Below are positions 10,829 to 20,727 of a stretch of 64,000 bases of DNA, piece by piece; position 1 is the stretch's first letter, and every line of letters starts with the position of its first letter. The DNA is taken from the NCBI GenBank assembly GCA_015039465.1, contig MU130073.1, positions 95,787 to 159,786 of the forward strand, given 5' to 3'. The notes under the pieces are model-generated. The model had not been told where the DNA came from. It saw nothing but the letters and a program-made list of their open reading frames with translations, and made no database searches. Source of the DNA: Phlegmacium glaucopus (Eukaryota > Basidiomycota > Agaricomycetes > Agaricales > Cortinariaceae). The position numbers and the translations under genes are program-made.

Positions 10829-12486
10829 GAGGTCTTTACTCTCCCCCACCTAATCTGCGCGGAGTCCGTGCGGAGTCTGAGCTGTCCACACAAAATTTAC
10901 ACCCTAAACCTTAAAATTAAAAGCTTTTGTAATATATATATATATGGACAGCTCGGACTCTGCACGGAGTCCGAGCTGTCCACACAAAATTTAAAACTTT
11001 TATAATATATATATATACCTATCCTAATTCTAACCCTAACCTTAACACTAACTTTAACCCAACCCTAACCAATTCCTAACAAATCTGTGCAGAATGCTAA
11101 GAGTCCACGCTGATGTAACTGCACAGAGGTTGTTGAGAAAAGGTGTATTTTCAAGATTATAAAAATCTCTACTCAAAACAATTACTCAATCAATACTTTA
11201 TACAATCTTAATAATGCAAGTTGGGTTTTCTAGAAAGTATAACCTTTCCAAGACTTTGAAATTCACTTCAACTAATACACACAACAACAACAATAATTTG
11301 GATCAATTGAAGGATGATCAAACTTTTAAGTGGTTTTGCAATTTATGGCTTGCACCAACAATCAGTCAAAGAATTCCTAAGACTTTACTGATTGATTTAC
11401 AATTTGTGTACACAAAAGTCCAAGACTTTGTTACAACTTCAACACAATTGCATACACAAGAAGGCTCAAACTTCTGCTATGACTTTAACACAATTGCATA
11501 CACAAGAAGCCCTCTTACTTCTGCTATGACTTTAACACAACAACAACTTTTACAACAATTCAACAATTATTGCAACAAATCAAACAACTCTGAGAAACTG
11601 ATTTATTTTCAAGTCCACTACTCAAAGACAAGTGTTCTTGCTCAATGTCTAAGACAGTGAGCTGTACTAGGTTGCAAATGAGGGGGGGAAAGAAAGAATC
11701 CAATTTTCTGACTATTTACAAACCCTGGGAGGTATTTTATACATTTGAGATACTTAAAAATAGATAATGTCCAAAAATAGATATACTGGTTCCTGGTACC
11801 CTTACTTTGGTTCTGGCACCATGTGCACTCATTGTTCCTGGAAACATAGGGGTTGTTCTATTTTTAGCCCCATGTTCCTAATTTTAGGTAGTTTCCACCC
11901 CTCTTGGTGGGAACTGTGCCTATTGTGCCTTGAAACAATCTTTATGATTGTTCAGCACTCCCCCTATCCTTAATCATCATGATTCCCACACAATCACATG
12001 GTTCCACTATCTTGGTTATTCTGCTTCCACTGTTGCTAGGGCACCAACTTCCCCTGAATATTTATTAATAATATTCTGTTGCTCCAAAATCACACCCCAT
12101 GACATTTGCTAACCCAATATTGTTTATTTAACTTTTCCTGTGCCAAGTCTATAAGGATATTCATGGATTTATTGGTTTTAATCCAGACATGCAATTTGTA
12201 GTGTAACAAATGATAGTCTATTGACCACACTTATTAACTATATGCATTTAAGTCACACAGTAATAGGTCTAATCAGCAGTTGTAGGGTAAACAACTCTGA
12301 TTCCCTTGTCTATTATCAGTGGTATTAGCCAGTTATTGGTGCATTAATTAATATTTATGCTGAAATAATAGATAAAAATTGCAAAAACCATGCTTATGCA
12401 GATTTAAATCATATCAACGCGGACAGCTTGGACAGCTTGGACAGCTTGGACTCCGCGCAGAGTAGGTAGGGGAGTGTAAAGTACAG
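10829..12486. mobile_element. Nested 1,658-bp non-autonomous hAT-like DNA transposon
   Basis: Flanked by identical 8-bp direct repeats CACAAATC (10821-10828 and 12487-12494), the target-duplication length expected of hAT transposons. Ends are inverted: the left begins GAGGTCTTTACTCTCCCCC and the right, read on the other strand, begins CTGTACTTTACACTCCCC, with similarity continuing for about 38 bp into CTGCGCGGAGTCC. The left end contains a second GCACGGAGTCCGAGCTGTCC palindromic copy and two TA-dinucleotide runs; the right end has GGACAGCTT three times in tandem (about 12422-12450). Internal frames (longest 148 codons at 11214-11660, Asn/Gln/Thr-rich) show no transposase motif. Hence non-autonomous. 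Confidence 0.85.
11028..11075 (+). repeat. Telomere-like CCCTAA-related short array inside the hAT-like element
   Basis: Degenerate tandem CTAACC/CTAACA units, including AACCCTAACC at both ends of the stretch, resembling the complementary strand of the TTAGGG telomere repeat used by most fungi. It sits just inside the left end of the nested transposon, far from any evident chromosome end, so it is best read as an internal part of that element. Confidence 0.5.
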
Positions 12487-16709: not shown

Positions 16710-19700
16710 CTACATCCTGGCATCTTCTTTCTGAACTCCCAACTGAAGTCCCTTGCTGGAGCAGGAATCCACATGCATTTCATCTGGATAACAGTATCAT
16801 AATCACAGAAGAAAGATATCATGAATAGACACACTCACCATCACTGAGTTCTTGCATTCCAGGCATTGAGTTGTTTGGAGCCTGATTAATAGCATTAAGC
16901 ATAAAAGTAGATAGTAGTATAATGAAAAGAAAGGCAGTCACAGACTGCAATGTGGAAAGAGGACATTGTTGCAAGCTAAGGATGATAGTCAGGTCAGAGA
17001 ACACTTACATCCTATGTTACAGAAGAAGTCATTGCTATTACCTTGGAATGACATTCAGGAAACAGTGCACTCACAAGCTGTGATAGAGAGAGATATTGTC
17101 AGCTATGGATGACAGCCAGAAGGGAGCACTCACATAATCTACATGCATTGCATCTAGGTGATCATGTTATAATCATGACATGAAGATATCAGAATAGACA
17201 GACTCACCATCACTAAGTTCCTCAATCCTAGATGTTGAGTTATTTGAAAACTAATTAGAAAATTTTCATATTAATATCAGGCATAGAAATATAATATAAT
17301 GATAGGAAGAAATACTTACAAACTGTAATATAGAAAGAGAATATTGTTGTCAGCTAAGGATGAGAGCCAGATCAGAGAAAACATACATCCTGTGAGATTA
17401 TTATAGTTAGTAGATAGGGATAACAGTTAGGAAAAAGCACACACAGAATCCACATGCATTGCATCTAAATGACCATATCATAATCAAAATGGGAAGATAA
17501 GTAGACAGACAAACTGACCATCACTGAGTTCTTCAATTCCAGATGTTGAGTTGTTGAGAGCCTGGTTGGAAGCATTTACCATGATAGTAGGGAAAATAAA
17601 CAAGAGATAAGTCCCTCACCAACTAGAATGAAGAAAGAGGCAATTTTTGTCAGCTAAGGATGACCAGGAGAGGGAGGACTCACAGCCTGCAATGCAGAGA
17701 GGTCATTTTTGTCAGCTAGGGATGACAACCAGAAGAGAGCACTCACAAACTCCAAGGCAGGGAGGCCATTGTTGTCAGCTAGAGATGACAGCCAGCAGAG
17801 AGAGTACTCACAGTCTGCAATGCAGGGAGATGTCATTGTCAGCTAGGGATGACAACTAGGAGAGAGGGAACTTACAGACTGCAATGGAGAGACAGGTCAT
17901 TCACAGCTAAGGATGACAGCCAGCAAAGAGAGCACTCACATCCTGCAATGCAGAGAGAGGCCATTTTTATCAGCTAGGGATGACAGCTAGGAGAGAGAGT
18001 ACTCACCAACTGTAATGCAGAGAGAGGTCATTGTTGTCAGCTAGAGATGACAGCCAGGAGAGAGAGCACTCACAGGCTGCAACAGAGAGAGGTGATTGTC
18101 ATCATCTATGACAGCCAGGAGAGAGAGCACTCACAGACTGCAATGCAGAGAGGAGTCATTCTTGTCAGCTAAGGATGACAGTCAGGAGAGAGAGCACTCA
18201 CAGCCTCCAATGCAGAGGCCATTGTTGTCAGCTTGGTATGACAGCCAGAAAAGAGAGCACTCACAGCCTTCAATGCAGAGAGAGGTTATTTTTGTCAGCT
18301 AGACATGACAATCAGGAGAGAAAGCACTCACAGACTGCAATGCAGAGAGGCCATTGTTGTCAGCCAAGAATGACAGCCAGGAGAGAGAGCACTCACCAAC
18401 TGCAATGCAGAGAGATGTCATTGTTGTCAGCTATGGATGACAGCCAAGAGGGAGAGCACACACAAACTGCAACACAAAGAGAGGCCATTATTGTCAGCTA
18501 GAGATAACAGCCAGGGGAAGAATCACTCACAGCCTACAATGCAGAAAGAGGTCATTGTTGACAGCTAGGGATGACAACCAGGAGAGAGAGCACTCACAGA
18601 CTGCAATTCAGAGAGGTTATTATTATCAGCTGGGGACAACAGTCAGAAGAGAAAGCACCCACATCCTGCAATGCAAGGAGAGGCCATTATTATCATCTAG
18701 GGATGCAGCCAGGAGAGAGAGCACTCACCAACTGCAATGAAAGAGGAAGGTTGTTGTTAGCCAGGAATATCAGCTAGAAGAGAGAGCACCTACAGGCTGC
18801 AATGCAGAGAGAGGTCATTGTTATCAGCCAGAGATGACAGTCAAGGAAGAAATCACTCACAGACTGCAATGCAAAGAGAGGTCATTGTTGTCAGCTAGGG
18901 ATGAGAGCTAGGAAAGAGAACACTCACAGCCTGCAATGCAGAGGGAAGGCATTGTTGTCAGCTAGAAATAACAGCCAGGAGAGAGAGAGCACTTACAAAC
19001 TGCAATGCAGAGAAAGGTTGTTGTTGTCAGCTAAGGATGACAGCCAAGAGAGAGCACTCACAAACTGCAACACAGAGAGAGGCCATTGTTATTAGCTGGA
19101 GATGACAGTTAGCCTAGGAGAAAGCACTCACCCACTGCAATGCAGAGAGAGGCCATTTCTTCAGTGAGAGATGACAATAAGGAGAGAGAGCACTCACAAA
19201 CTGCAATGCAGAGGGAGGCCATTTTTATCAGCTAGGAATGAACAGCCAGAAGAGAGAGAGCTCACCAACTGCAATGCAGAGAGAGGTCATTGTTATTAGC
19301 TAGGGATGATAACCAGGAGAGAGAGCACTCACAGGCTGCAATGCAGAGAGAGGTCATTGTTATCAGCTAGGGATGAGTTGGATGACAGCCAGGTGAGAGA
19401 GCACTCACAAACTGCAATACAGAGAAGTCATTGTTGTCAGTTATGGATCACAGCAAAGGTTGATTTTAGTTACTGACTATTTTTCTTGCCACCTTGACAC
19501 TTTTTCTAACAGTCTCTTGAAAGATGACCATGTCTGTCCTGAAATGCAATATTCTTTCCATATCACCAGGTGCTACATCATGGACTATAGTGAGTTTATT
19601 TCTACTTCTTCAATGAAGGCAGCCAGGCCACATCACTCACATATCTGATTTTGTAGCCTTGCATGGAAATTTACAATATTGGGAGCCTACAATGAACAAG

Positions 19701-20727
19701 TTAGTACATATTTCATGGTTTTATGTTGCTCAGTGATTATATATTACTCTCTTGCTACCTCCTTTGGAACTTGCTAGCAAGCCATATGATTCAAGGAGAA
19801 TAACATCCAGAAGAAGTTCATGATTTCGAGAAAACACAGGTAGGTCCCAAAATCTTGACCAACTCCAGTGTAACACAGTGAAGGGGCTTGTGCTGAATAT
19901 GTCCTACAATTTCCCAGTTAATTTTTTCCAGATATATCTCAATATAAGTGCTCACCATTAGTTGAAAGAACTGAGCAATGGTCAGTTAACATCAAGAAAG
20001 GATGACATAAACTCAACCAATGAGAACATACAGCAGCTATCTTTATCATTTCTACATCTGCAGAACTTCCGATAAATACATTTGATAAGGATAGACCACC
20101 TGCAGAAACGCAATGTGAGGGACATGTAAATTTTTATAAGGCTACACTCATACCACCGGAAAGGACGATAAATCTGTCGCCATCCTCATTATCAATAGAA
20201 GTTCCGAGGAACTGGGATATATCTGGCCGACGAGCCAGTCTTCTATGTGTCAGAATCCTTGAAATAGTACAGCAAGGTAACAAAACCCACGGTGATTTGG
20301 CGAATTCTAGATGATTATCAAAAATATCTTCCTTATCCCCGTACCAATGGATGCGATACATTTTAACACGGGAGGTCATTAACATCGGCTTCATCTCCAT
20401 GGTCACAATGCCAGTGGGACTGGTGCGCAGATGTCGCAGTGTTTGCTGATCGAAGTCGACCCATCGGTACTTATTCCACTTGAATGTAGTCAGTTTTTAT
20501 GCTGTAATCAACTTCTCGCGGTCGGCCTTACGTACGTGAGATGGCCGTTCACTAGAATAAACATTCATAATTCCATGAACGATAGCTAACGTGCTTTGAT
20601 TGACGCTGAACTGATTTGCATTAGGAAAGAAGGCGCCATATGATGGTGACTGGGAGCCTTCAAGTAAACGGTTTGGATTGGTGAGCGGTTCATCGTTCAC
20701 AGGTTCGCCGTACAACAAGCGATCCAT
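16710..20727 (-). CDS. Predicted 46-exon gene with 33 three-nucleotide exons
   Basis: Phase-consistent hand model, about 411 codons. Large exons: 20727-20536, 20478-20154, 20099-20032, 19970-19956, 19903-19748, 19686-19641, 19584-19493. Then 28 exons of 3 nt (lowest base and codon): 19409 TTT, 19333 CCT, 19266 TTG, 19198 TTT, 19132 TGG, 19062 TTT, 18997 TTT, 18928 GCT, 18861 TCT, 18794 CCT, 18729 TTG, 18663 GAT, 18598 TCT, 18531 GCT, 18464 TTT, 18397 TTG, 18332 TCT, 18265 GCT, 18202 GCT, 18135 TCT, 18074 CCT, 18007 TTG, 17940 GAT, 17876 TCT, 17812 ACT, 17747 TTT, 17684 GCT, 17620 TTG. Then exon A (17561-17519), B (17464-17445), 17387 GAT, 17320 TTT, A (17250-17208), B (17153-17134), 17075 CTT, 17009 GAT, 16942 TCT, A (16881-16839), last exon 16783-16710 with stop TAG. 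The N-terminus (YGAFFPNANQFSVNQSTLA) resembles agaric-expanded proteins of unknown function. Exons 5-7 encode LHWSWSRFWDLPVF and FHDVAPGDMERILHF. Function unknown; the joins need RNA evidence. Confidence 0.62.
16942..19492 (-). repeat. Tandem array of intron plus 3-nt-exon units (61-76 bp period)
   Basis: On the plus strand this reads as a satellite with units around CTGCAATGCAGAGAGAGG and GTCAGCTAGGGATGACAGCC. On the minus strand each unit is an intron: donor GTGAGT (variants GTAAGT, GTGGGT, GTGTGT, GTAGGT), a CTGAC-type branch site in AGCTGAC about 25-30 nt before the acceptor, a C/T-rich tract, and acceptor TTGCAG. Start-to-start spacing of the 28 core units is 61-76 bp, most often 67, so introns are about 58-73 nt. 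All 33 three-nt exons (28 core plus 5 dispersed) keep GT after and AG before; weaker acceptors (GAAG, GGAG, GTAG) occur at 18265, 18202, 17747 and 18531. Interspersed larger exons mark block boundaries. Confidence 0.9.

Follow-up and report, generated by a model that had tools for sequence, protein, structure and literature searches.

A predicted gene of Phlegmacium glaucopus with a tandem array of one-codon exons

Introduction

Can a reading frame be carried, one codon at a time, through a tandem repeat that resembles a satellite? The question is raised by the stretch of the Phlegmacium glaucopus genome analyzed here (64,000 nt of contig MU130073.1, GenBank assembly GCA_015039465.1, positions 95,787 to 159,786 of the forward strand; hereafter the window), in which Tandem Repeats Finder detects a repeat with a period of 67 nt in 27.6 copies. 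In an original prediction made from the letters of the window, this repeat was read on the minus strand as a chain of small introns exactly 3 nt apart, belonging to a gene with 33 three-base exons. The analysis described below leads to a predicted minus-strand gene (20727-16710) in which predicted introns, 58-73 nt long, separate 28 lone phase-0 codons that are likely to be spliced into a variable stretch of protein. The host is an ectomycorrhizal species of the Agaricales; its proteins among the matches in a large protein collection (13, 27 and 10 proteins, in largely overlapping sets) are P0005 and five close homologs, while P0010 belongs to Hebeloma cylindrosporum and P0007 to Flammula alnicola.

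Results

The predicted gene and its array

The chain of introns was borne out: all 33 three-base islands are present at the positions claimed for them, each preceded by AG and followed by GT, none of them a stop codon and all in phase 0, with those of the array (AG|NNN|GT) spaced 61-76 nt apart. The gene model, which was built by alignment from splice sites conserved among seven paralogous loci, comprises 47 predicted exons (1188 nt) encoding 395 residues and a TAG (396 codons with the stop), in place of the approximately 46 exons and 411 codons first proposed. All 46 predicted introns are 51-73 nt long (51-69 nt outside the array), and 34 of the 47 exons are no longer than 15 nt (33 of 3 nt and one of 15 nt), which makes this a microexon-rich gene. 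Twenty-eight of the one-codon exons are consecutive, from a1 at 19411 to a28 at 17620, and five lie downstream. The array (17620..19411, minus strand, phase 0) reads FPLFWFFASPLDSAFLSAASPLDSTFAL; the first bases of exons a1 to a14 are at 19411, 19335, 19268, 19200, 19134, 19064, 18999, 18930, 18863, 18796, 18731, 18665, 18600 and 18533, and those of a15 to a28 at 18466, 18399, 18334, 18267, 18204, 18137, 18076, 18009, 17942, 17878, 17814, 17749, 17686 and 17622. The upstream part delivers the frame to the array in phase 0, as had been proposed, and does so through eight exons (846 nt, 282 codons) rather than seven (894 nt, 298 codons); this revision follows the paralog alignment and the public partial model P0005 (189 residues), with which the upstream part is 100% identical over the length of P0005 and agrees in its splice sites.

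Seven arrays and the length of their predicted exons

The 60.5-Mb genome contains seven array loci, namely the window (on C41), one locus on C209, two on C93, and one each on C67, C17 and C241, with 19 to 32 units per array. The locus search scored best candidates only; a protein search with the upstream part gave matches at the same seven loci and none elsewhere at E <= 0.001. A genome-wide search for the unit pattern returned 107 exact or one-mismatch units (the places of 100 of the 107 are listed) versus 0 in the reversed control, and the branch-acceptor-codon-donor pattern has 64 of its 69 genome-wide matches in the array loci, the other five being single matches on five contigs (1 match in the reversed control). 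The exact unit pattern was not found in the virus collection.

With lengths of 0-9 nt permitted, the exon enclosed by AG and GT comes out at 3 nt for 177 of the 178 units in the seven arrays, the remaining unit being ambiguous (GAT|GTTAGT); the zero-length exons of recursive splicing, in which AG is directly followed by GT, are thus a different arrangement. Codon counts refer to 179 codons, a set from which one false match was removed (GTG in locus L009, inside exon E7) and to which two GC-donor units of locus L013 were added, and intron counts refer to the 170 of these units that have a next unit within 90 nt. Two L013 units (AAT|GTCAGT) that the pattern missed also keep AG and GT, and are outside all counts.

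Splice signals, frame and codon make-up

The 170 aligned array introns have the characteristics of U2-type spliceosomal introns: the donor is GT in 168 and GC in 2, the acceptor is AG in all 170, 150 have a strict CTRAY branch motif, which in 102 of them lies 28 nt from the acceptor, and the lengths (49-73 nt over the seven loci) are within the range of the gene (upstream introns of the seven loci, where modelled, 47-68 nt). Typical unit signals are the donor GTGAGT, the branch CTGAC and the acceptor TTGCAG. The four splice-site bases (GT or GC plus AG) are intact in 170 of 170 introns, versus ~101 expected if they drifted like the other 56 intron columns, which differ from consensus by 12% on average; the comparison carries a risk of circularity, the units having been located by their splice sites, and the arrays are gapless except at two places in L013, both of which are filled by a unit with AG and GT. 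The sole non-GT donors in the 170 introns are also in L013, where one-codon exons TTT at ~5553 and ~5619 are each followed by GCAAGT.

Intron lengths occupy all three classes modulo 3 (91, 46 and 33 of 170), and the frame could therefore be held only by splicing. The codons avoid internal decoy splice sites, GTN occurring 0 times versus 18.3 expected, NGT 6 times versus 17.0 and NAG 2 times versus 13.4 (10,000 shuffles). Their third base is T in 138, G in 36, A in 5 and C in none of the 179, and TTC, GAC or AAC is used in 0 of 89 F, D and N codons, whereas the upstream exons of five loci use them for 95 of 230. Among the 179 residues encoded, F (39), D (38), L (24), W (16) and N (12) predominate; V, C, K and M are absent.

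Variability of the codons

Entropy over the 67 positions of the unit, counted as alignment columns that at least half of the units fill, is highest at codon positions 1 and 2 (1.68 and 1.82 bits), where pairs of units mismatch in 64% and 70% of cases. In sampled pairs, the array introns mismatch by 18% between loci (2,593 pairs) and by 16% when both belong to one locus (407 pairs); for the ordinary upstream introns of the paralogs the figure is 14%. When neighbors were picked on half of the intron columns, codon mismatch at the two positions was 65% and 66%, versus 17% in the other half (maximum 38% in any column). Grouping by alternate intron columns made the remaining columns little more alike, and the units are therefore not simply tree-like.

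Within the window array the six-codon block GCT TCT CCT TTG GAT TCT occurs twice (P = 0.0004 by shuffling); the introns of the block's units, as printed, are 72-89% identical, with a mean near background. The array codons thus look to be under selection that has sometimes kept and mostly diversified them.

Public models and the open reading frames of relatives

The public annotation omits the array and gives the window gene as two models, the partial P0005 (189 aa) and P0028 (70 aa). The open reading frames (ORFs) of three relatives, P0008, P0011 and P0023, run without introns through the part corresponding to exons E4-E7, of which E7 is the last before the array, and then continue for 35, 47 and 35 residues at the array position. 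The contigs that bear them are short (1110, 1324 and 1558 nt), and because the P. glaucopus copies have introns throughout the E4-E7 part we infer that these contigs are spliced transcripts. The extra stretches are rich in D, F and L (P0008), in E, S and L (P0011) and in D, R and F (P0023), and the residue make-up correlates with that of the islands at r 0.84 for P0008 and 0.62 for P0023, the upstream exons giving 0.35 for comparison. The ends of the stretches were set by eye, that of P0023 before a V, and the absence of V from their 117 residues is not used as evidence. P0011 goes on into a module, STSKIEELSDDEMDI, that is close to the window module STSGIEELSDDAMHV.

The ORF of P0009 has the end WMVDMISWGVSLLLAFIYGLY after E7. 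The segment VSLLLAFIYGLY of P0009 may represent a retained intron with the start GTGAGT; an array spliced only in part would then be suggested.

Condition of the paralogous copies

Both the window gene and L010 have an open frame all the way from first exon to terminal stop, and L012 is open in the pieces covered, upstream through the partial public model P0004 and downstream through an anchored model that reaches the terminal stop with a 207-nt gap unfilled. The upstream exons are open in five modelled loci (L014 without E1) and differ in length by multiples of three alone. The ratio of nonsynonymous to synonymous divergence (dN/dS) is 0.37-0.78 at a dS of 0.19-0.33, on five loci, the upstream model being without E2a in L012 and L013 and without E1 in L014. 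Downstream of the array an ad hoc Viterbi gene finder was uninformative, early stops being costless to it (read-through exons in 3 of 6 loci, odd or partial chains in 3 of 6), and this part was modelled by anchored models instead. In L014, the copy on C241, unrelated DNA begins directly after the array, at ~5533; judging by a motif, it may resemble a Ty3/Gypsy-type element on the opposite strand.

Contrary observations and alternative explanations

Exon length, frame, splice-site retention, decoy avoidance, the repeated codon block and the ORFs of relatives together support one-codon-exon splicing of the window gene, as far as tests on sequence can. Several observations weigh against it or limit the evidence for it. 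Phase-0 stops number 0 in 179 codons (3 and 40 of 172 in the other two phases), versus 8.2 expected from 5,000 column shuffles, and this test is partly confounded, most of the expected stops being TAG and the other NAG codons being rare as well (2 versus 6.6); for TAA and TGA alone the figures are 0 versus 1.3, and by itself the test is not decisive. Two public models, P0002 and P0003, pass over the array by connecting E7 with an exon further on, and P0001 and P0004 continue into the first intron of the array. Among the relatives, the stretch of P0011 differs in composition from the islands (r = 0.25), and the extra stretches may derive from an ordinary exon; P0014, on a contig that like that of P0023 is 1558 nt long, reads into an intron, and this contig could thus be incompletely spliced; in P0009 and P0019 the frame stops shortly after E7, with no array-like stretch. 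Four of the loci are damaged outside the array: a module acceptor has been lost from L011, one module of L013 ends in a stop, L009 has GTG in place of ATG and ends in a shifted frame, and L014 is interrupted just past its array. Only one of the seven arrays contains the repeated codon block, the other six having no such run. Finally, codon mismatch is lower between units whose introns are most alike: it is 0 for 2 pairs, 0.17 for 3 and 0.48 for 27, versus 0.65-0.71 in all other bins of intron similarity. Codons are therefore copied with the unit, and their excess divergence takes time. The idea of targeted hypermutation is weakened by six one-codon exons at fixed places beside unique exons, whose mismatch is only 25% and 33% at positions 1 and 2 (81 pairs). 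Judged from these comparisons, the codons are evidently copied with the unit and later diverge more than the introns, and are not subject to blind hypermutation.

Were the array a satellite inside one long intron, with E7 spliced straight to the first downstream exon (M1a) and the islands never read, the jump of P0002 and P0003 would be explained, and splice signals could have been inherited by the copying that makes any tandem repeat. Copying does not explain, however, why 170 of 170 acceptors are intact amid ~12% drift, why GC is the sole replacement for a GT donor (2 of 170), or why decoys are avoided and phase 0 is free of stops; moreover, three relatives have extra residues at the place of the array, and the model introns outside the array are only 51-69 nt long. 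This explanation is accordingly very improbable. Another accepts the same splicing and differs as to origin: copies of a single intron would have entered an ordinary exon of ~30 residues between every codon. No special selection would then be needed for the codons to differ where the introns are similar, but the codons of the seven arrays cannot be aligned by eye past the first one, unlike other exons they never have C as the third base, only T, G or A, the intron is confined to the array loci (64 of 69 genome-wide pattern matches), and the number of units varies from 19 to 32. We regard such an invasion as unlikely.

That the gene family has ceased to be expressed and its arrays are remnants in decay is more doubtful still. 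Damage outside the array in 4 of 7 copies and dN/dS values of up to 0.78 would suit decay, but the splice sites and frame of the arrays are kept even in damaged copies, the upstream exons change length by multiples of three, and the window and L010 are open throughout, as is L012 in the pieces covered.

Exons flanking the array

All exons given here are on the minus strand. The predicted first coding exon, E1 (20536..20727, 192 nt), has its ATG at 20727, a start that is the same in P0005. A TATA-like stretch, GCTATATAAA, occupies window positions 20750-20741, with TATATAA at the corresponding place in 5 of 7 loci; because the stretch ends just 13 nt before this ATG, the true start codon may be further in. 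Exons E2a (20291..20478, 188 nt), E2b (20154..20239, 86 nt) and E3 (20032..20099, 68 nt) have splice sites conserved in the paralog alignment and are also read in P0005. E4 (19956..19970) is a 15-nt microexon encoding FFQLM that is present in 7 of 7 loci and read in P0005, P0001, P0002 and P0003; public models P0004 and P0006 omit it. E5 (19748..19903, 156 nt) and E6 (19641..19686, 46 nt) likewise come from the paralog alignment, the start of E5 being read in P0005 and the frame of E6 being the same in the paralog model P0001. E7 (19478..19572, 95 nt) ends ATA|GTCAGT in phase 0, with a donor shared with P0002 and P0003; the last pre-array exon originally placed at 19493-19584 was corrected accordingly, the end at 19493 being dropped because L011 does not share its donor and the public paralog models place theirs at 19478.

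Downstream, the predicted modules (three 43-nt exons, two 20-nt exons and a 74-nt last exon with its TAG at 16710) and the five islands interleaved with them, at 17389, 17322, 17077, 17011 and 16944, were all recovered. In the anchored model the 43-nt module exon M1a (17519..17561, ALNNSTSGIEELSDD) and the 20-nt M1b (17445..17464, AMHVDS) are followed by the one-codon exons d1 (17387..17389, GAT) and d2 (17320..17322, TTT), by M2a (17208..17250, 43 nt) and M2b (17134..17153, 20 nt), by the one-codon exons d3 (17075..17077, CTT), d4 (17009..17011, GAT) and d5 (16942..16944, TCT), and by M3a (16839..16881, 43 nt) and the last coding exon M3b (16710..16783, 74 nt, stop TAG). Elsewhere in the window, a telomere-like short repeat, TAACCCTAACCT, is present in 3.4 copies at 11024-11070, a contig-internal position.

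The predicted product

In the predicted protein a conserved N-terminal part precedes the variable acidic-aromatic stretch, which is made up mostly of F, D, L, W and N, and conserved NNSTSGIEELSDDAMHVDS modules follow. No Pfam family scores above cut-off in the N-terminal part, the matches being below cut-off or marginal, and a search of the PDB by sequence gave no match; fold comparison returned weak rows only, mostly kinases, so that any likeness of the N-terminal part to protein kinases is weak. A variable segment of acidic and aromatic residues, flanked by conserved parts, would be apt for changing partners, and we guess that this segment might serve in binding them.

Discussion

How might such an array be spliced, and how might it evolve? 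Each unit would be recognized by intron definition, having an intron of ~64 nt with a strong donor, a branch motif and an acceptor. With only 3 nt between the donor and the acceptor of neighboring introns, simultaneous binding of the two is hardly conceivable, and the introns would be expected to be removed stepwise, each splice adding one codon. The array would grow and shrink by unequal exchange of the 67-nt unit (one intron and one codon), an exchange that would never break the frame, just as skipping any number of units would be frame-safe. Such tandem duplication of an intron together with its codon explains the 67-nt period, the unit numbers of 19-32, the shared third base and the frame-intact arrays. 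The codons would be under a selection of their own, having roughly four times the divergence of the introns across loci and yet a block that is kept in the window array. It is possible, and we put it forward tentatively, that the array serves to generate diversity. Each satellite unit would combine one intron with one variable codon; unequal exchange would reshuffle codons from one generation to the next, and alternative skipping of the symmetric phase-0 exons could provide every cell with many different in-frame peptides from a single gene, while selection would keep the introns alike and the codons different.

If confirmed, dozens of adjoining one-codon exons would mark a limit of gene splitting; they would test the reach of intron definition, with neighboring donor and acceptor 3 nt apart, and would represent a route by which a variable peptide evolves through frame-safe tandem duplication. 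Similar genes may hide elsewhere, because gene finders seem blind to the array (the public models of these genes covered here stop, split or jump).

In the micro-exon genes of schistosomes, symmetric exons of ~6-36 nt encode variable products with a secretion signal. The array is like them in that the coding region consists largely of symmetric tiny exons, the product is variable and skipping is frame-safe; it is unlike them in that its exons are 3 nt, below that size range, and form a 67-nt tandem repeat, whereas theirs are not copies of one unit. Collagen-type genes, in which tandem duplication has produced conserved exons of 45-54 nt or more, share growth by duplication of an exon with its intron, but the exon duplicated here is one codon and variable. 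Introners are near-identical introns spread across many unrelated genes; the present unit is instead found at seven loci of one family and in 5 single matches.

In the open-licence literature no tandem array of one-codon exons was found among the matches listed, the closest of which describe single or few neighboring microexons (PMC11162997, PMC11096116, PMC8831610) and the microexon-rich effector genes of aphids (PMC9168663). Aphid bicycle and megacycle genes have many microexons (>100 in megacycle) and diverge rapidly, two features that bicycle genes share with the present gene; their internal exons are almost all in phase 2, unlike the phase-0, one-codon, tandemly repeated exons of the array (PMC9168663). 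For the single-nucleotide exon of Arabidopsis APC11, the authors favor intron definition with stepwise removal; that exon too is far under the limit for exon definition, but it is isolated, whereas here there is an array (PMC4674806). Human RPS24 has consecutive, alternatively used microexons of 3, 18 and 22 bp, and thus resembles the array in having adjacent microexons and a 3-bp exon; it differs in having three such exons and no repeat array (PMC11162997). Xlr2 of Trichoderma virens likewise has a functional microexon in a fungus, of a kind that its authors state had not previously been described in filamentous fungi; unlike the array, it is a microexon switch in one gene (PMC11121469). By comparison with these systems, a tandem array of one-codon exons would be new in kind; it could also be called the extreme of microexon genes.

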